Shown here: positions 46,567-54,552 of the stretch, in pieces | How positions within the stretch are numbered: position 1 is the stretch's first letter | Layout: every line of letters starts with the position of its first letter | Assembly: GCF_000730165.1 (NCBI RefSeq) | Contig: NZ_CP022110.1 | Span: 1,557,501 to 1,621,500 of the forward strand | Reading direction: 5' to 3' | Source of the DNA: Nitrospirillum viridazoti CBAmc | GTDB taxonomy: Bacteria > Pseudomonadota > Alphaproteobacteria > Azospirillales > Azospirillaceae | DNA length: 64,000 nt | Translations under genes and position numbers: made by a program | The notes under the pieces: model-generated | Databases searched by the model: none | What the model saw: only the letters and a program-made list of their open reading frames with translations | Told to the model about the DNA's origin: nothing

Positions 46567-47796
46567 TCACGCCTGCGCCGGTTGCGTCTGGCTTTGCGGC
46601 TGCACCGCCTCTGTCTTCACCGGCGGGGCGAGACGCTTGAGACCGAACCAAGGCCGCAAGAAATTCACCCGCCGGACTATCTCGTAAGTGGCAAAACAGC
46701 CGGCGAAGGTGATGACGACCAGGATGGCCGCCTCCAGGCCCTGGGGTAGGCCCAGGGGCGCCAGGTTATGCCCTGCCACCACGGTGATGGTCTGGTGGAC
46801 CAGGTAGAAGGGGAAGACCGCCTGCACCAGGTACCGCAGCACGGGGCCGTCACGGTTCAGGTGGCGGGCGCCAAAGCCCAGCGCGGCGACGATGGCGCCC
46901 CACTGCTGGGCGGCATAGACGAGGCGCATCGCGGCGCGGATGCCCAGCGGGGCGGGTGGCGCGCCGAAGGGGTAGGCCCAGGTGTAATAGGCCACCACGG
47001 CGTAGGCGGGCACGGCCAGGGCCAGCCCCCACCAGCGCCAGCGGATGAAACCATCCCGCAGGGGCAGGGACTTGGCGATCAGGAAGCCGAAGAGGAAGAC
47101 GGTGAACGACAGGACATGATTGTACCAGTCGTGCAGCATCCAGTGGGTGATGGGGAAGCGCAGCTGCAGCATGTCCAGGGCGCACAGTGCCAGAAAGGGC
47201 AGGGCCATCAGGCGCCAGCCCACCAGCCGCGCCTCCAGCTGGGTCCCCGCCGCCCGCAGCCGCTCCCCCGCCAGCCCCAGCAGTACCGACAGCCCCAGGC
47301 TGTAGGCCAGCAGGTAGGACACGAACCACATATGGTTATAGGTGGGGGTCGTCAGGCAATCATTGACCCGGCACCAGTGGCCCGTGCCGCTGAGGTACTT
47401 CAGGTAAAAGGCCGGATAGTAGGTCTCAACCGGCGTCACCGCCTGCTCGATCACCTGGTAGTAGGTCTGCGGCGGCACCAGGACCAGCACGGCGAACACC
47501 AAGGGCGGCACGAGGCGGGCCAGCCGCGCCTTGGTCAGGGCGGCCACCGTCATCTTGTCGGCCATGAAACGGGTCGCGGCCCCCGACACGAGGAACAACA
47601 GGCTGAGACGCCAGGGGCTGGTCGCCATCAGCACCGGCGCCATGGCCGCTACCTCGTGCGGGCTTTTCACATGCCATTCCCAAGGCCCGTAGAACATGCC
47701 CACGTGGAACACGATCAAAGTGAAGAACGCCAGAACCCGGATCCAGTCCAAGTCGGGACGGCGGGTGACGGCTGGCGCAGGACGGGAAGGCATCAT
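46567..47796 (-). CDS. Acyltransferase-3/OpgC-like membrane protein, copy A
   Basis: A 409-residue integral membrane protein with about ten hydrophobic helices, of the acyltransferase 3 family. The catalytic-region His of family members is in LDWIRVLAFFTLIVFHVGMFY, followed by WHVKSP and FLVSGAATRFMADK. The conserved block GHWCRVNDCLTTPTYNHMWFVSYLLAY and the late FPFYLVHQTITVV complete the pattern. Such proteins transfer acyl groups, for example succinyl or acetyl, from the cytoplasm to periplasmic glycans. It is strongly similar to copy B (50115-51338) and is divergent from a LytTR gene. Confidence 0.85.
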   Translation of the reverse strand: MMPSRPAPAVTRRPDLDWIRVLAFFTLIVFHVGMFYGPWEWHVKSPHEVAAMAPVLMATSPWRLSLLFLVSGAATRFMADKMTVAALTKARLARLVPPLVFAVLVLVPPQTYYQVIEQAVTPVETYYPAFYLKYLSGTGHWCRVNDCLTTPTYNHMWFVSYLLAYSLGLSVLLGLAGERLRAAGTQLEARLVGWRLMALPFLALCALDMLQLRFPITHWMLHDWYNHVLSFTVFLFGFLIAKSLPLRDGFIRWRWWGLALAVPAYAVVAYYTWAYPFGAPPAPLGIRAAMRLVYAAQQWGAIVAALGFGARHLNRDGPVLRYLVQAVFPFYLVHQTITVVAGHNLAPLGLPQGLEAAILVVITFAGCFATYEIVRRVNFLRPWFGLKRLAPPVKTEAVQPQSQTQPAQA

Positions 47797-47957
47797 GTTC
47801 TTTCGGCCCCTGGTCGTAAGACATGTGGCGGCTGCCCGCGCCACTGCCCTAGGCTGACCTTAAGGAGGAAAGCTGGCCATTTCCCTGACGCGAGCGGCGG
47901 GTTTTCCGAGGCCGATGGGGACGGATGGTTGGCCGGCAGGGTCAAACGGATGAAAAA

Positions 47958-48839
47958 ATGAGACCGGCGGTGGATCGTTTGTCAGTCTTCTGGAGTACGC
48001 CCAGCCTGAAGGCCTGGGCCCTTGTGTGGCTGGGTTTCGCCTTTCTCCCCACCACCATCAACGCCTTCGCGCTGTTGACGGAATATCAGCGGACCAACCA
48101 GGACATCCCGGCCTGGGAGCCCTTCCTGCGGGAGTATTCCAGCGGCGTGGCCCTGCTGTTGGTGCTGCCCCTGGTGCGCTGGTCCATCAACCACACGCCG
48201 GGCTGGTCGGAGGCGCCGCTGCGCTGCGCCGTCCAGTTCCTGGGCACGGCCCTGGTCTTCAGCACCCTGCACCTGGCGGCGATGACCGTGCTGCGCATGG
48301 CCGCCTATGGCGCGCTGGGGCAAAGCTACGCCGTGGACGACCTGCGGGACGACCTGCCGTATGAGTTCCGCAAGGATTTGCTGACCTACCTGCTGATCGT
48401 GCTGGTGGTGGTGGGTGTGCGACACCTGATCCGCCTGTCGCGGTCGCTCGCCCTGGTCGAGGCGGCGGCGGCAAGCGCGGCGGCTCACGCCTCAGAGGGA
48501 CAGGCCCCACCGGCAGTGGCGGCGGAACCGACACGCATAGAACTGAAGGTGGGATCGCGCCGGGTCTACCTGGCGCCGGCGGACATCCTGCTGGTGCGCT
48601 CCGCCGGCAATTACATCGAGGTGGTGACCGCCGGGGCCGTCCACCTGGTGCGCCGCACGCTGGCGGATTTCCAGGCGGAATTGCCGCCGCCAAGCTTCGC
48701 GCGGGTCCATCGCTCGCACGTGGTGAACCGGGGCGCCATCGTCCGTATCGATAACCGGCCTTCCGGCGACATGGACTTGACGTTGACCAACGGCGCCACC
48801 ATCCCGGCCAGCCGCCGCTATAAATCAGAGCTATTCTAG
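47958..48839 (+). CDS. Membrane-anchored LytTR-family DNA-binding regulator, copy A
   Basis: A 293-residue protein. Four hydrophobic helices span about residues 17-165 (ALVWLGFAFLPTTINAFALL; GVALLLVLPLVRW; FLGTALVFSTLHLAAM; LTYLLIVLVVVGV). A linker and a LytTR domain follow (RIELKVGSRRVYLAPADILLVRSAGNYIEVVT, HLVRRTLADFQAELP, FARVHRSHVVNRGAI). It is thus a one-component membrane-bound regulator. ATG 47925 is an alternative start. It is homologous to copy B (51472-52374) and is divergently paired with the acyltransferase gene. Confidence 0.85.
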   Translation: MRPAVDRLSVFWSTPSLKAWALVWLGFAFLPTTINAFALLTEYQRTNQDIPAWEPFLREYSSGVALLLVLPLVRWSINHTPGWSEAPLRCAVQFLGTALVFSTLHLAAMTVLRMAAYGALGQSYAVDDLRDDLPYEFRKDLLTYLLIVLVVVGVRHLIRLSRSLALVEAAAASAAAHASEGQAPPAVAAEPTRIELKVGSRRVYLAPADILLVRSAGNYIEVVTAGAVHLVRRTLADFQAELPPPSFARVHRSHVVNRGAIVRIDNRPSGDMDLTLTNGATIPASRRYKSELF

Positions 48840-49085
48840 AATAGACGTATGCCCAAGCGATTATCTGCCGCGGCACCGCACCAGCCGGGGGTATAGGTCT
48901 AAGGTCCGTTTGAAGTGCGGGCATGCATTGGGCCAGACTGGCGACGTCGACGGGGACCTCACTTTTCTAGCGGGTTTCACACCTTTCTCCAAAGTGTCCA
49001 CGGCGACGGGCGCCCGAAATCCGGCCCAGCCGGCGTTGGTCGGCGTTAACCTTGTTTTTGGGTTGGTTGGAGGCACTGCCGACCG

Positions 49086-50045
49086 ATGGAAGCCTTGTCC
49101 CCGCACGCCATTCTGGCCGCGATTGTCGACTCGTCGGACGACGCCATCATCAGCAAGTCGCTGGATGGCACCGTCACCAGTTGGAACGCGGCGGCGGAGC
49201 GTCTGTTCGGCTACACCGCCGATGAAATGATCGGCCGCAACATTGCGGTACTGGCCCCCCCTGGGCGCGAGGCGGAGATGCCCAGCATCCTCGCCCGCCT
49301 GAAACAGGGGGAGCGCGTCAGCCACTTTGAGACGCTGCGCCGTCACAAGGATGGCCACACGCTGGAAATCTCACTGACCGTCTCGCCCGTGCGCGACGCT
49401 GACGGCAACCTGATCGGCGCGTCCAAGATCGCCCGCGACATCTCGCAGCATCGCCGCTCAGAACGCCAGATCTCCTTCCTGATGCAGGAGGTCGACCACC
49501 GCGCCAAGAACGCGCTGGCGGTGGTGCAATCCATCCTGCGCCTGACGCGGGCGGACTCGGTGGACGACTTCGTCGCCTTGGTGGAGGGACGCATCTCCGC
49601 GCTCGCCGCCATCCACAGCCAGGTGGCCAGCCGCCAATGGGTGGGCACCGACATGGACAGCCTGGCCCACATCTCCTTCGATCCCTTCGACCCCAGCGGC
49701 GCCCGTGTCACCCGCAGCGGGCCGCAGACGGTGCTGGGCCCCCAGGCCTCGCAGGCGCTGGGCCTGGCGCTGTATGAGCTGGCGGGCAACGCCGCCCGCT
49801 ATGGCGCCCTGAACCATCCGGACGGCCATGTCGACCTGTCGTGGCAGAGCGACGACAGCGCCCTGTCGGTCAACTGGCGCGAATGGGGCCTGCACGACAT
49901 CCGTCCGCCGATGCGCAAGGGCTTCGGCCTGACCGTGTGCCAGCTGCTGCTGGCGGGGCAGTTGGGCGGGCATCTGGACTTCGACTGGCAGGAGGGCGGT
50001 CTGGCCCTGGGCATCAGCCTGCCGCGCGCCAACCTGATGAACTGA
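49086..50045 (+). CDS. PAS-domain HWE-family sensor histidine kinase (orphan)
   Basis: A 319-residue soluble kinase. An N-terminal PAS domain (ILAAIVDSSDDAIISKSLDGTVTSWNAAAERLFGYTADEMIGRNI) with PAC tail is followed by the HWE/HisKA2-type dimerisation box around His138 in DHRAKNALAVVQSI. The ATPase part has the N-box YELAGNAARYGAL, the WREWG tryptophan/glutamate motif and GFGLTVCQLL. No response regulator is adjacent. HWE kinases in alphaproteobacteria often feed PhyR of the general stress response. It sits between the two duplicated acyltransferase/LytTR pairs. Confidence 0.9.
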   Translation: MEALSPHAILAAIVDSSDDAIISKSLDGTVTSWNAAAERLFGYTADEMIGRNIAVLAPPGREAEMPSILARLKQGERVSHFETLRRHKDGHTLEISLTVSPVRDADGNLIGASKIARDISQHRRSERQISFLMQEVDHRAKNALAVVQSILRLTRADSVDDFVALVEGRISALAAIHSQVASRQWVGTDMDSLAHISFDPFDPSGARVTRSGPQTVLGPQASQALGLALYELAGNAARYGALNHPDGHVDLSWQSDDSALSVNWREWGLHDIRPPMRKGFGLTVCQLLLAGQLGGHLDFDWQEGGLALGISLPRANLMN

Positions 50046-50114
50046 CGCCCGCCGGTCATGCCAGCGGCATGAGCATCTGCTCATGCCGCTGCACTTGCGG
50101 GAAATCTGATAAAT

Positions 50115-51338
50115 TCACGCCGGTTGCGCTTGTGTCTCCAAGCGCACCGCCGGCCGGGGCTTCAGCCCGAACCAGGGCCGCAACGGGTTCACCCGGCGCA
50201 CCGCCTCATAGACGGTGAGGCAGGTGGCGAAGGTTCCCAGGATCAGCAGCGGCGCCTCCAGCCCCTGGGGCAGGCCCGCCTTGGCCAGGTAATGCCCCAG
50301 GACGACGGTCGCCGTCTGGTGCACCAGGTAGAAGGGGAACACGGCCGGCACCAGATAGCGCAGGGCGGCGCTGTCGCGGGTCAGATGGCGGGCGCCGAAA
50401 CCCAGCACGGCGGCGATGGCGGCCCATTGGTCGGCCGCATAGACGAAGCGCATGACGGCGCGCAAGGCCTCGGGCGGCACCGCATCGTCCGCGCGGTAGG
50501 CCCAGGCATAGGTGGCGAAGACGGCGTAGGCGGGCAGGGCCACCAGCAGCGCCGGCCAGCGCAGGCGCAGGAAGCCCTGGCGCAGCGTTTCCGACTTCGC
50601 CATCAAGAAGCCGAACAGGAAGGCGCTGAACGACAGGGCGTGGTCGTACCAGTCGTTGACGATCCAATGCGTCATGGGAAAGCGGTCCAACAGGGCGTAG
50701 CGGATCAGGCCCAGGAACAGGAGGGGCAGCACCAGCAGGCGCCAGCCGCTCAAGGCCCGTTCCATGCCGCGCTCCAGCCGCGTCAGCAAAGATCCCGCGA
50801 CCGCCAGCAGGCCGCACAGCACCAGGGTGTAGGCCAGCAGATACGCCACGAACCACATGTGGTTGTAGGTCGGGGTCGCCAGGCAGTCTGTCCCCCGGCA
50901 CCAGTGGCCGCTGCCGGTGACGTATTTCAGGTAAAAGGCCGCATAGGGCAGGGCCTGATCCGGCACCTTCTCCACGATCTCGAAAAAGCTCTGCGGCGGT
51001 ACGATGACGAAGATGGCCAGCAGCAGGGGCGGCAGCAGGCGGGCCACCCGGGCCCGGGTCAGCGCCCCCACCGCCATCTTGTCGGCCATGACCATCTTGT
51101 CCGCCAGGAAACGCGTCGCGGCGCCCGAGACCAGGAACAGCAGCGTCAACCGCCATGGGCTGGTCAGCATCATGATGGGTTCCAGCGCCGGAACCGTATG
51201 CGGGCTTTTCACGTGCCAGTCCCACGGCACGTAGAACATTCCCACGTGATAGAGGATCAGCAGGAAGAAGGCGATGACGCGGATCCAGTCCAGGTCATGC
51301 CGGCGTGTCGAAAGGGGGAAAGGGGCGGAAACGGACAT
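50115..51338 (-). CDS. Acyltransferase-3/OpgC-like membrane protein, copy B
   Basis: A 407-residue homologue of copy A with the same landmarks: LDWIRVIAFFLLILYHVGMFY, DWHVKSP, FLVSGAATRF, GHWCRGTDCLATPTYNHMWFV and FPFYLVHQTATVVLGH. It differs by a short internal duplication (ADKMVMADKM where copy A has only ADKM). The C-terminus RRVNPLRPWFGLKPR also matches copy A, with Pro/Gln-rich tails in both. Divergent from LytTR copy B. The acyl donor and acceptor glycan are unknown. Confidence 0.85.
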   Translation of the reverse strand: MSVSAPFPLSTRRHDLDWIRVIAFFLLILYHVGMFYVPWDWHVKSPHTVPALEPIMMLTSPWRLTLLFLVSGAATRFLADKMVMADKMAVGALTRARVARLLPPLLLAIFVIVPPQSFFEIVEKVPDQALPYAAFYLKYVTGSGHWCRGTDCLATPTYNHMWFVAYLLAYTLVLCGLLAVAGSLLTRLERGMERALSGWRLLVLPLLFLGLIRYALLDRFPMTHWIVNDWYDHALSFSAFLFGFLMAKSETLRQGFLRLRWPALLVALPAYAVFATYAWAYRADDAVPPEALRAVMRFVYAADQWAAIAAVLGFGARHLTRDSAALRYLVPAVFPFYLVHQTATVVLGHYLAKAGLPQGLEAPLLILGTFATCLTVYEAVRRVNPLRPWFGLKPRPAVRLETQAQPA

Positions 51339-51471
51339 CGGCGTCGCATCCTCATGATCAGGCTGGCCGGGACACCGGCGATGGCGCTACGCTGGCATCC
51401 GGCCGCCGGCGCCCCCAAGAGGCGAGGGCGCGGGCGGCGGGATAAAGGGCGCGGATGGGGATTGAGCGGCG

Positions 51472-52374
51472 ATGTCCACGGCACCAGCGGCGGAGGGGAC
51501 GGCGCAGGCGGTGATGCTGCCGGGATGGCGGCTGTCGGCGCGCGCCACCTGGGCCTTGGTGTGGCTGGTTTTCTATTTCCTGCCCACCACCATCAACGTG
51601 CTGTCGGTCCTGTCGGAGCATAAGCGCGACGGCCGCCCCATCGCCGCGTGGGAGCCGATGTGTTGGGAATATTCCAGCGCCCTGGGGGGCTTGGCGGCGC
51701 TGCCGCTGGTCTATCTGGCGATCAGGCGGGCGCCGGGCTGGGCACGGGCACCGCTGCGCACCTTGGGCCTGCATCTGCTGCTGATGATCGCCTATGGCGT
51801 GGTGCACATCAGCCTGATGATGGGCCTTCGTGTCATCGTGTATGCCCTGGTGGGCGGCCACTACCATAGCGCCGGCAGTTGGGCCGACATCTTCCTCTAC
51901 GAGGTCCGCAAGGACGCGCTGACGTACCTGATCGCCGCCGCCATCCTGACCATGGGCCGGCAGTTGGTGCGGCTGTCGCGCGTGGTGGCGCTGGTGGAGG
52001 CGCAGCAGGCCGCGGCGGTTTCAGCACCAGCGGCTGCGCCGGCCGCTGTAGAACCTCCGGCCCGCCTGGAATTGAAGGTCGGCACCCGCCGCGTGTTCGT
52101 GGCACCGGAGGAGATCATCCAGGTCAGCGCCGCCGGCAAGTATGTGGAGATCATGACGGCGGAGCGGGTGCACCTGGTCCGCCGTTCCCTGGCCGACATC
52201 CAGTCCGACCTGCCGCCCCACCTGTTCGTGCGCGTCCACCGCTCCCGCCTGCTGAACCGCGCCACCATCCAGCGCGTGGACAGCCGCCCCTCCGGCGACC
52301 TGGACATCACCCTGACCACCGGCCTGACGGTGACCGCCAGCCGGCGCTACAAGACGGACCTGCTGCAGGTTTGA
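51472..52374 (+). CDS. Membrane-anchored LytTR-family DNA-binding regulator, copy B
   Basis: A 300-residue homologue of copy A: four hydrophobic helices (ALVWLVFYFLPTTINVLSVL at the start, then ALGGLAALPLVYLAI, LHLLLMIAYGVVHISLMM and LIAAAILTMG), an Ala-rich linker and a LytTR domain (LELKVGTRRVFVAPEEIIQVSAAGKYVEIMT; FVRVHRSRLLNRATI). Both copies share LPTTIN in the first helix and the end SRRYK. Likely autoregulatory and acting on the divergent acyltransferase gene. The hydrolase gene converges on it with only one base between stops. Confidence 0.85.
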   Translation: MSTAPAAEGTAQAVMLPGWRLSARATWALVWLVFYFLPTTINVLSVLSEHKRDGRPIAAWEPMCWEYSSALGGLAALPLVYLAIRRAPGWARAPLRTLGLHLLLMIAYGVVHISLMMGLRVIVYALVGGHYHSAGSWADIFLYEVRKDALTYLIAAAILTMGRQLVRLSRVVALVEAQQAAAVSAPAAAPAAVEPPARLELKVGTRRVFVAPEEIIQVSAAGKYVEIMTAERVHLVRRSLADIQSDLPPHLFVRVHRSRLLNRATIQRVDSRPSGDLDITLTTGLTVTASRRYKTDLLQV

Positions 52375-52375
52375 C

Positions 52376-53344
52376 CTACTGCCCATTCCCCCGCACGAAG
52401 CGGACGATGGCGCTGGTGATTCCGGGGTTGATGGCCAGGCCGGGGTCGGTGTAGGTGGCCAGGTTGCCGGCGCGGTCGTTCAAGGGCGCGTTCTTCATCA
52501 TGTGGTTCACACCCTCCAACCGCTCCAGCCGCACGCCCTGGCGGGCCTGGGACAGGCGGACGGCGTCCGACATGTCGATCTGGATGTCGTTGGTTCCCTG
52601 CAATACCAGCACGGGCTGGCTGGTGCGGGCCAGTTCCGCCGCCGGATCGATGGTCAGTTCCGAAATCAAATAGGGCTGGATGCTGGGGCGGAACAGGCTC
52701 ATCAACGGCGGCGGCACCTTGGCCACCGGCCGGCCCTGCTCCAGCTGGGCGATGGCGTCCAACGCCGCCCGCTGTACGTCCAGGGCCAAGTCCGTACGCG
52801 GCAACTGCTGGCGCATCATGTCGCCGTACGTGCGGCCGGGGGTGGCCACCAGGATCAGGCCCGCCACCGGCGCCTGTTCGGCCAGCAGGATGGCGGTCAG
52901 CCCGCCCTCGCTATGGCCCAGCAGGAAGACGGGACCGATGCCCGGCTGGGCGCGCAGGAAGGCCAGCCACTGGCCGGTGTCCTGCACATAGGTGTTCAGC
53001 CGCAGGTCCTCCTCCCGCGTCAGGGCGGCCTTGCTGGCGCTCACGCCGCGCTTGTCGATACGCAGGCTGGCGATGCCCTTCAGGGCCAGGGACTGGGCCA
53101 ACTGGCGCAGGGCGTCGGTGCGCAGCGAGGGGCCGTTGCCGTTGCGGTCCACCGGACCGGAGGCGGGCACCATCAGCACGGCGGGGACGGGCCCCGGCGG
53201 GGCCATGTCCGGCATCTGCAGCGTACCGGCCAGAAGACCGGGGCCGCCGTTGATCGTGACCTCCTGCTCCATGGCGCCGGCCCGGCCCGTGGCGAGCAGG
53301 GCGGCCAGCAGCAGAACCCGTTTCCAATGCCGTGCGCGCATCAT
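52376..53344 (-). CDS. Secreted alpha/beta-hydrolase
   Basis: A 322-residue hydrolase. A signal peptide ends at about residue 24 (GRAGA). The nucleophile elbow is GHSEGG with Ser145; the acid and histidine are probably in VLQGTNDIQID and EGVNHMM. The N-terminal PAVLMVPASGPVDRNGNG oxyanion region is typical of prolyl-oligopeptidase-like/BAAT-type esterases. GGAG precedes the tandem ATG pair at 53344. It begins 12 bases after the glycosyltransferase stop, so the two genes form an operon. Confidence 0.85.
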   Translation of the reverse strand: MMRARHWKRVLLLAALLATGRAGAMEQEVTINGGPGLLAGTLQMPDMAPPGPVPAVLMVPASGPVDRNGNGPSLRTDALRQLAQSLALKGIASLRIDKRGVSASKAALTREEDLRLNTYVQDTGQWLAFLRAQPGIGPVFLLGHSEGGLTAILLAEQAPVAGLILVATPGRTYGDMMRQQLPRTDLALDVQRAALDAIAQLEQGRPVAKVPPPLMSLFRPSIQPYLISELTIDPAAELARTSQPVLVLQGTNDIQIDMSDAVRLSQARQGVRLERLEGVNHMMKNAPLNDRAGNLATYTDPGLAINPGITSAIVRFVRGNGQ

Positions 53345-53355
53345 CCGTTCTCCGC

Positions 53356-54552
53356 TTACAGTCCGCCATCCCGGTGCGGGATCGGCACCGGGGTCACCAG
53401 GCCCAGGTAGAGGTCGCGCATGCGCCGGCCCACCTCGGCCTCGCCGAACTCCGGATCCACCACCCCGCGGCTGGCCAGGCCCAACCGGCGGCGCAGGGCC
53501 GCATCCTGCGCCAGGCGGGCCAGAACGACCGCCAGCGCCACCGGATCGCGGGGCGGGGCCAACAGGGCGTTGCGCCCCTCCACCGCCACCTCGCGGCTGC
53601 CCGGCACGTCGGTCGCCACGATGGCACGGCCGCAGGCCGCCGCCTCCAGCAGGCTCTTTGGCACGCCTTCGCCACCGCGGGAGGCCAGCACGGCGATGCC
53701 GGCGCGGGCCCAGACGGTGCGCACGTCGCTGACGGCCCCCAACCATTCGATGCCGGGCTCCGCCGCCCAGGCGTTCAGGGTCGCCTGGGGGATGGCGGCC
53801 GGGCTGTCGGTGTCGGGCGCACCCGCCAGGATCAGACGCAGGTCGGTGCCTTGGGCGCGCACGAGACGCACGGCGGCCACCAGATCCTCCACGCCTTTCA
53901 GGGTCAGCATGCGCGAAACCTGGGCGCAGGTGACGGGTCCCAGGGGCTCCGCCAGTTCCTCATAGTGGGTGAGATCCACGCCGGAGCCGCGGATCAGGCG
54001 CGACGCCGGCGGCCGGGGCCAGCCGGCGGCCAGCAGGGCGGCGTCGTCGCCGTTCTGCACCACCAGGGCCTGGCCCCGGCGCCAACCGGCGGCGTTCAGC
54101 GCCAGGCGCAGGAGCACCCGGCCCAGGGCCGCCTTGGTTCCCGTGCCCGACAGGCCCAGGCCCAGACCGGCCAGGGTGGCGACCACCCGGCTGTCGCGCA
54201 GGCCGGCCAGGAACAGGGCGAAGCCGCCCAGCACCGTGGGCTTCACCGCGATGTGGTGGATGATGGTGGGCCGTTCCCGGCGGTAGAGCCGCGCCAGGCG
54301 GCGGATGTCGCCCAGGGCGCTCAAGGGGTTGAAGCTGCCGCGCCGCCACGGCAGGGGAATGACGCGGAACCCCTCCGCCGCGATGGCCGGCCCGTCCTTG
54401 GCCACCCGGCAGGCCACGGCGACGTCGAACCCGGCGTCGCGGGCCGCCCGCGCCGTGGGCAGGCGGTGGGACCGGAAATACCAGTCCTCCGTCACGACGA
54501 ACAGCAAGGTGGGGCGGGGGGCGTCAGGCATGATGACCAAAGCGGCGTCCAC
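53356..54552 (-). CDS. Glycosyltransferase family 4 (GT-B fold)
   Basis: A 398-residue glycosyltransferase. The N-terminal half begins TLLFVVTEDWYFRSHRLPTARAARDAGFDVAVAC and includes IIHHIAVKPTVLGG. The C-terminal half holds the donor-binding blocks VSRMLTLKGVEDLVAA and RGGEGVPKSLLEAAACGRAIVATDVPG, with the GT4 EX7E-type acidic motif. It resembles enzymes that add the second sugar to lipid-linked saccharides (PglA-like), which is only an inference. ATG 54531 is an alternative start. It is upstream of the secreted hydrolase gene in one operon. Confidence 0.88.
   Translation of the reverse strand: MDAALVIMPDAPRPTLLFVVTEDWYFRSHRLPTARAARDAGFDVAVACRVAKDGPAIAAEGFRVIPLPWRRGSFNPLSALGDIRRLARLYRRERPTIIHHIAVKPTVLGGFALFLAGLRDSRVVATLAGLGLGLSGTGTKAALGRVLLRLALNAAGWRRGQALVVQNGDDAALLAAGWPRPPASRLIRGSGVDLTHYEELAEPLGPVTCAQVSRMLTLKGVEDLVAAVRLVRAQGTDLRLILAGAPDTDSPAAIPQATLNAWAAEPGIEWLGAVSDVRTVWARAGIAVLASRGGEGVPKSLLEAAACGRAIVATDVPGSREVAVEGRNALLAPPRDPVALAVVLARLAQDAALRRRLGLASRGVVDPEFGEAEVGRRMRDLYLGLVTPVPIPHRDGGL

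Follow-up and report, generated by a model that had tools for sequence, protein, structure and literature searches.

Two divergent pairs of acyltransferase-3 and membrane-anchored LytTR genes in Nitrospirillum, with predicted tandem operators

Transmembrane one-component regulators are an established class, according to the available part of a paper devoted to them (PMC10269533), and a described system with several features of the locus reported here is HigX, a transmembrane LytTR factor of Caulobacter crescentus (PMC13384398, available part). We analysed a window of 64,000 nucleotides from Nitrospirillum viridazoti CBAmc (contig NZ_CP022110.1, forward-strand positions 1,557,501 to 1,621,500), in which two divergent gene pairs, each made up of an acyltransferase-3 (AT3) gene and a gene for a LytTR protein with a four-helix membrane domain (4TM-LytTR), lie around a PAS-HWE histidine kinase gene. 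We call the acyltransferases (ATs) AT1 and AT2 and the regulators LytTR1 and LytTR2; the latter combine a membrane region and a DNA-binding domain, as in the definition of transmembrane one-component regulators given in the available text (PMC10269533). As far as its description is available, HigX resembles them in having four membrane helices and a LytTR domain with no apparent periplasmic domain, in being a one-component factor with envelope-related targets, and in being alphaproteobacterial. It is set apart by that same description in being divergent to a COG4188 hydrolase gene, where the facing gene here encodes an AT3 enzyme, and its chromatin immunoprecipitation motif is an 8-bp inverted repeat without a spacer, as opposed to the 20-21 bp direct repeats of other sequence found here (PMC13384398). 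The word 'acyltransferase' does not occur in the main text of the HigX paper (PMC13384398).

CoxC is likewise a membrane sensor fused to a LytTR domain, with three direct repeats near its target promoter, but its sensor is a seven-helix MHYT domain that senses carbon monoxide (PMC11347149, available part), against four helices here; in Pfam, neither of the two matched MHYT up to E 0.1. In the HdrRM and BrsRM systems, LytTR control is tied to a small membrane protein, and 9-bp direct repeats with a similar half-site lie ~21 bp apart; the membrane inhibitor there is a separate protein encoded in an operon, whereas here it is the membrane part of a fusion, with a separate AT3 target on the other strand (PMC6193735, available part). 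Systems of the LytS/LytR type offer a further likeness, since a betaproteobacterial PF06580 kinase with a homologous membrane domain and a separate LytTR protein occur beside this same AT3 enzyme; the version in the window has neither kinase nor receiver domain, and the DNA-binding domains of the two versions group apart. No AT3-linked LytTR pair or operator was found described in the literature searched, which covered few subscription papers; the available part of an AT3 review does not mention LytTR (PMC9558356), and that of the paper on LytTR Regulatory Systems does not mention acyltransferases (PMC6193735). A first-pass annotation of this stretch had called the system undescribed, which stands for its link to AT3 in the literature searched and fails for the 4TM-LytTR class itself, already published with HigX (PMC13384398, available part).

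We think it probable that each pair is a self-contained unit, in which a membrane-bound one-component LytTR protein activates the AT3 gene facing it. Both the coordinates and the Pfam matches confirm the layout first described for the five genes, two divergent AT3/LytTR pairs flanking an HWE kinase. AT1 (46567..47796, minus strand) and AT2 (50115..51338, minus strand) are stand-alone acyltransferase-3 membrane enzymes, matching PF01757 at 85.9 and 89.9 bits (cut-off 31 bits), and the model of AT2 has a mean predicted local distance difference test score (pLDDT) of 94.2. The open frame of AT1 extends to 47844; its probable start is 47796, where the alignment to AT2 begins. LytTR1 (47925..48839, plus strand) and LytTR2 (51472..52374, plus strand) join a membrane domain to a LytTR DNA-binding domain, matching PF04397 at 79.6 and 70.2 bits (cut-off 22.6 bits), and the family profile matches LytTR1 over its full length. 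This arrangement exceeds chance, because the whole 7.38-Mb genome has three LytTR and three Acyl_transf_3 matches, two of each of which fall at this locus; the third of each sits elsewhere, on different contigs. As a side observation, the third LytTR gene (L104, 5824-6720, 298 amino acids) has no AT nearby, its 13-kb region holds no array above 5.0 bits, and the domain tree places its DNA-binding domain far from those of the paired LytTRs. An alpha/beta-hydrolase gene (window 52376-53746) is convergent to LytTR2, ending 1 bp past it; a hydrolase gene thus lies beside both this regulator and HigX, being divergent to the latter in its available description.

The pairing recurs in other bacteria, as the first-pass annotation had proposed to check. 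In a phylum sample of 398 genomes, where only full-length 4TM-LytTR matches were counted and hits to the DNA-binding half alone were excluded, an AT of this AT3 subfamily lies within 2 kb of 30 of the 35 full-length 4TM-LytTR genes, a fraction biased towards linkage by the LytTR profile (A4), which consists mostly of AT-linked proteins (3 of its 17 rows have other targets). All 30 AT-linked genes are divergent to the enzyme gene, with 171-289 bp between the matches in 29 cases and 1378 bp in one; two loci of the class sample (G218, G311) have a tandem instead of a divergent order. Counted from the enzyme, a full-length 4TM-LytTR lies within 2.5 kb of 33 of the 44 ATs found at E 1e-80 or better. 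Among the best 80 of 575 related named AT loci, 66 carry a divergent 4TM-LytTR, 12 a frame of the same membrane domain without the LytTR half, one a truncated LytTR and one none; these 80 include Caulobacter, Brevundimonas, Phenylobacterium, Hyphomonas, Bradyrhizobium, Pseudoxanthomonas, Lysobacter, Stenotrophomonas, Duganella and Massilia. The flanking genes vary by lineage (MutS, sigma-70, a sugar transporter, an epimerase, an ion channel and others), and no third gene conserved beside the pair across lineages was seen in the compared neighbourhoods. Some variants were noted in passing: in Bradyrhizobium manausense SZCCT0118 (L183, 4423-4956) the LytTR frame beside the AT is reduced to a membrane half of 177 amino acids, several ATs surround one LytTR at three loci (L201, L202 and L092: three in G521, two in G539 and two in tandem in G048), and in four genomes that belong to a single family (L190, L191, L193, L194) related ATs without LytTR face gcpE (ispG) divergently.

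Each divergent spacer in the window carries a tandem array of three direct repeats on the minus strand. Operator 1 (47918..47972) reads towards AT1, with repeats at 47960-47972, 47939-47951 and 47918-47930 (period 21/21), and operator 2 (51439..51492) reads towards AT2, with repeats at 51480-51492, 51459-51471 and 51439-51451 (period 21/20). They overlap the 5′ ends of the regulator genes if LytTR1 starts at 47925 and LytTR2 at 51472. No homologous spacer shared by both pairs was found outside the operator, as the two spacers (128 and 133 bp) align at 63.7%, no better than shuffles (n = 50, mean 58.9%, maximum 69.1%).

The same periodicity appears across lineages. For 86 AT/LytTR spacers, we looked for self-similarity at every offset from 12 to 59, requiring at least 9 matches per 11 bases, after removing L105 and L106, which come from the same strains as G004 and G006. 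Self-matches at 21 bp occur in 52 of the 86 spacers, against 4.0 in shuffles, and at 20 bp in 22, against 3.6, with echoes at 41 bp in 25 spacers (shuffles 3.2) and at 42 bp in 19 (3.8); offsets 19 and 22 do not rise above background, and every other offset is reached by at most 9 spacers. Expectation maximisation (EM) gave the motif GCCG[CT]TC[GA]TC[CA]C in 2 to 5 copies per spacer, and the 154 spacings between copies are 21 bp in 114 cases, 20 bp in 38 and 22 bp in 2. When both strands of the 64-kb window were scanned with a motif built from 202 sites outside Nitrospirillum, the best triple arrays were operator 2 (22.5 bits) and operator 1 (19.0 bits); the next non-overlapping array scored 10.0 bits, and the best triple in 400 kb from the rest of the genome scored 10.2. 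With own-lineage sites omitted, the AT/LytTR spacer contained, on the AT strand, the highest-scoring tandem pair anywhere in the locus in 80 of 80 loci, where 0.78 would be expected. The arrays stop short of the AT model start by median distances of 69-151 bp in six tabulated groups, and no conserved -35 or -10 boxes are evident in the lineage consensus strings. The LytTR family consensus is [TA][AC][CA]GTTN[AG][TG], with which GCCGTTCRT agrees save at the first position. The arrays are putative LytTR binding sites, with a layout like that of published ones. LytTR sites are described as 9-bp direct repeats with spacers of 11-13 bp (mostly 12), just upstream of the -35 element of activated promoters, and the BrsR half-site ACCGCTTAT resembles GCCGCTCAT in the same orientation (PMC6193735, available part). 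The regulatory link from LytTR to acyltransferase, part of the first-pass annotation, thereby gains support at the level of sequence from an operator that the annotation did not contain.

Rearranged loci, which contributed no sites to the motif, show the operator staying with the target. In tandem LytTR-AT loci (L094, L096) the array lies before the AT and not before the LytTR in both cases (28.9 and 28.4 bits), and in two-component loci, at lower scores of 5.5-19.9 bits, the top array lies ~60-110 bp before the AT in 11 of 12, with the second-best array so placed in the twelfth. Nine 4TM-LytTR loci have no AT neighbour, and in five of them an array of 24.6-35.0 bits precedes the facing gene. 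Two of these regulators (L101, 4650-7506; L102, 4362-7231) face a pyrroloquinoline quinone (PQQ)-dependent dehydrogenase, with arrays of 29.7 and 35.0 bits, and three (L186, L188, L189) face a BBE-type flavin adenine dinucleotide (FAD) enzyme with the operator present, identified by the Pfam domains FAD_binding_4 and BBE in L186 and L188 and by position only in L189. Where present, the operator lies on the strand of the target gene. Since the DNA-binding domains of L101, L102 and L186 nest inside AT-linked groups in the domain tree, the target was likely replaced, by the PQQ dehydrogenase or BBE-type FAD enzyme, while the operator was retained. Among AT loci without LytTR, the best array lies before the AT on the AT strand in none of the 15 scanned, a set that does not include L100 and L204.

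A LytTR domain fused to a four-helix membrane anchor, as first proposed from the translated frames, is borne out by Pfam and by the AlphaFold model of LytTR2, which shows four long helices (residues 23-53, 60-86, 94-126 and 137-184) followed by a LytTR fold (mean pLDDT 90.6, predicted template modelling score 0.63). In Foldseek the latter matches 3d6w (E 3.4e-8), and also ComE and AgrA. No Pfam model reaches its cut-off across the membrane helices of LytTR2 (membrane domain 51538..52023, plus strand, residues 23-184); across 66 sequences of the domain, S69, R120, Y131, E144, K147 and D148 are invariant, and E66 and H112 nearly so. The domain is homologous to the membrane part of LytS-type kinases: aligned to that of 12 kinase-type frames found beside this AT, it gave an hhalign probability of 99.5 (E 1.1e-22, 146 columns). 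Six of these 12 frames were scanned with Pfam and all six carry PF06580, while a separate LytTR frame precedes the AT in 11 of the 12 loci, with a receiver domain in both of the two scanned. The kinase-type loci are mostly from Burkholderiales, an order in which L166 and L169 have the one-protein form.

Together, these data leave us evenly divided on a reading in which a single type of membrane sensor domain controls the same acyltransferase through two wirings, with like tandem operators before the enzyme, and in which the regulator can also swap targets while keeping its operator. In Alpha- and Gammaproteobacteria and part of the Burkholderiales the domain would belong to one membrane-tethered DNA-binding protein, and in other Burkholderiales to a kinase that works with a response regulator. 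Common descent of the one- and two-component DNA-binding domains has no support, as nine response-regulator domains group apart beside generic LytTRs (98-column tree, support 81-83, with 2 of the 11 separate LytTR frames left out). The membrane domain was found 36 times in the 398 genomes, 35 times in the 4TM-LytTR loci already counted and once in a kinase without this AT, in a count that scored at most 9 first-look candidates per genome and may underestimate kinases with the domain. G590 (L275, 6360-8332) encodes, side by side, a LytTR protein and a kinase that bears the same membrane domain; no AT of this subfamily was found there at E 1e-20, and no nearby array exceeds 7.3 bits.

On the enzyme side, AT3 proteins are described as having R-X10-H and RXXR motifs (PMC9833829, available part), and the corresponding residues of the ATs, R20 and H31 together with R97 and R100, are invariant in 12 sequences and at least 90% conserved in a 79-row alignment (from which L148 is absent). 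The sole NCBIfam match of AT1 and AT2 is MdoC, with 90.2 and 99.9 bits where the cut-off is 338, so that they share with OpgC/MdoC the stand-alone AT3 form and fall far below the threshold for that family. OpgG (PF04349) has no match in this genome, is absent from 29 of 42 module-bearing genomes and is present in 8 of 24 genera. Periplasmic glucan, one of the substrates suggested by the first-pass annotation, is disfavoured here and rejected as a general substrate by this distribution of OpgG; the acylated molecule would instead be an envelope glycan or lipid. A fold search with the AT2 model returned weak matches only, HGSNAT first at E 0.22, and the AT profile matched none of the sequences of solved structures.

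The two pairs of the window are copies of each other. AT1 and AT2 share 61% protein identity over 414 columns (73.2% in coding DNA), LytTR1 and LytTR2 share 47% over 283 columns (63.8%), and every identical block listed in the first-pass annotation is present in both copies. Six of seven Nitrospirillum genomes, this one among them, have the complete five-gene order; G001, the seventh, shows AT1, LytTR1 and the kinase in this order before its contig breaks off within AT2. We built trees from 45 AT and 45 LytTR proteins (45 of 90 pairs), covering five of the seven genomes of the genus. In both, the Nitrospirillum copies form a single clade (support 99 each), not unrelated ones. The LytTRs divide into a pair 1 (96) and a pair 2 group (98), and the ATs into a pair 1 group (100) and a pair 2 group of four (98), with the fifth copy falling in neither. 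As the copies form one clade in both trees, split by pair for all but one AT copy, the whole unit, suspected from the start to be duplicated, was most likely duplicated before the sampled Nitrospirillum species diverged.

The relatives of these copies differ between the partners. The Nitrospirillum ATs nest inside Caulobacteraceae (100), and the approximately unbiased (AU) test disfavours placing them beside the Niveispirillum-like pairs of their own family (p 0.010); the Nitrospirillum LytTRs do not group with Caulobacteraceae (AU p 5e-6). Co-inheritance of both partners throughout thus has no support from the AU tests for Nitrospirillum. The pattern fits transfer together with partly separate histories of the AT and LytTR partners, a reading of the trees limited by long branches and by the choice of AU clades after the trees had been seen.

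A mechanism consistent with these observations would start from a LytTR protein held in the inner membrane by its four-helix domain, which has no evident extracellular domain. Its cytoplasmic LytTR domain would bind tandem GCCGYTCRT half-sites that recur every two DNA turns in the spacer between the divergent genes, and from there would most likely activate the facing AT3 gene. It may also limit its own expression, because the array overlaps the 5′ end of the LytTR's own gene in this genome. An envelope molecule would then receive acyl groups that the AT3 enzyme moves across the inner membrane. The switch would be the membrane domain, responding to a membrane-borne signal, as a homologous domain serves as histidine kinase input beside the same enzyme, mostly in Burkholderiales. 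The duplication in Nitrospirillum would have produced two parallel regulator-enzyme channels.

Several observations weigh against this mechanism or against the evidence for it. Of the 44 ATs with E values of 1e-80 or better, 11 lack a nearby full-length 4TM-LytTR, and four regulators without an AT neighbour (L090, which faces a TonB receptor, L103, L185 and L187) have no operator; one AT without LytTR (L199) has its second-best array (9.4 bits) before the AT on the AT strand. Arrays in other genera are stronger than those of the window, which score 14.8 and 14.1 bits as pairs and are then unexceptional, since scores of 15.5 and 14.4 occur in the 400 kb elsewhere, leaving the triples alone as exceptional. 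The 86 spacers are mutually related, and the copy positions come from one joint EM over all of them, window included, so that leave-out tests are partly blind. The AT and LytTR trees conflict on the nearest relatives of the Nitrospirillum copies. Finally, CoxC, itself a membrane LytTR protein, is described as repressing from three direct repeats spaced 12-13 bp (PMC11347149, available part).

The last point leads to the main rival, that the LytTR represses both the AT gene and its own gene and releases them in response to a signal, which for CoxC is carbon monoxide. The number of repeats in CoxC (PMC11347149, available part) and the overlap of the window arrays with the LytTR gene starts speak for such a repressor. 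However, the array points towards the target and, in the tandem loci L094 and L096, stays with the target and not with the regulator, and the median of 69-151 bp between array end and AT model start leaves room for an upstream activator site. Activation is preferred because of this orientation and position, and we consider repression unlikely, if still a serious competitor.

The PAS-HWE kinase (49086..50045, plus strand; PF07536, HWE_HK, at 71.9 bits against a cut-off of 22.8, and PF00989) could be thought to supply the input in place of the membrane domain, with the kinase and both units forming one circuit. It lies between LytTR1 and AT2 in all six other Nitrospirillum genomes (the contig of G001 is cut inside AT2), so that its central place in the gene order is conserved in the genus. 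Yet no HWE kinase was found beside 18 other compared loci, single pairs of the same family included, and LytTR1 and LytTR2 have no receiver-domain match in Pfam. A circuit that includes the kinase therefore appears improbable, and the kinase is probably a passenger conserved within the genus.

The repeats might instead be a heptad repeat of the LytTR N-terminus, or an RNA feature, as 21 bp corresponds to seven codons and the repeats fall within a possible LytTR frame in Bradyrhizobium (7 of 7) and in many Caulobacterales. The 20-bp spacings (38 of 154) break the reading frame, the phase of the repeats to the LytTR frame varies by lineage, with 13 of 17 Lysobacterales arrays outside it, and in tandem and two-component loci the arrays lie before the AT, away from the LytTR start. 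On these grounds we reject a coding heptad repeat, and this whole alternative to an operator seems very improbable. Least probable of all, with next to no claim on the data, is common inheritance of the pair without regulation: adjacent genes are often co-inherited and the unit may have been transferred, but pair and spacer repeats persist while the flanking genes change between lineages, and the operator also precedes a PQQ dehydrogenase or BBE-type FAD enzyme as the facing gene.

Activation of the facing AT3 gene by a membrane-bound LytTR protein would bear on two matters described as open questions in the available part of the literature on membrane-fixed factors, namely how such factors find and control promoters and whether they arise from two-component systems (PMC10269533). 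Both questions become testable with this module, for which an operator is predicted, the neighbouring target is a single gene, and matching one- and two-component forms exist in named species. If the two wirings are real, a two-component system and a one-component membrane factor would be seen to stand in for one another naturally at the same promoter. From the module one can further predict which of the stand-alone AT3 enzymes in this subfamily are under signal control.

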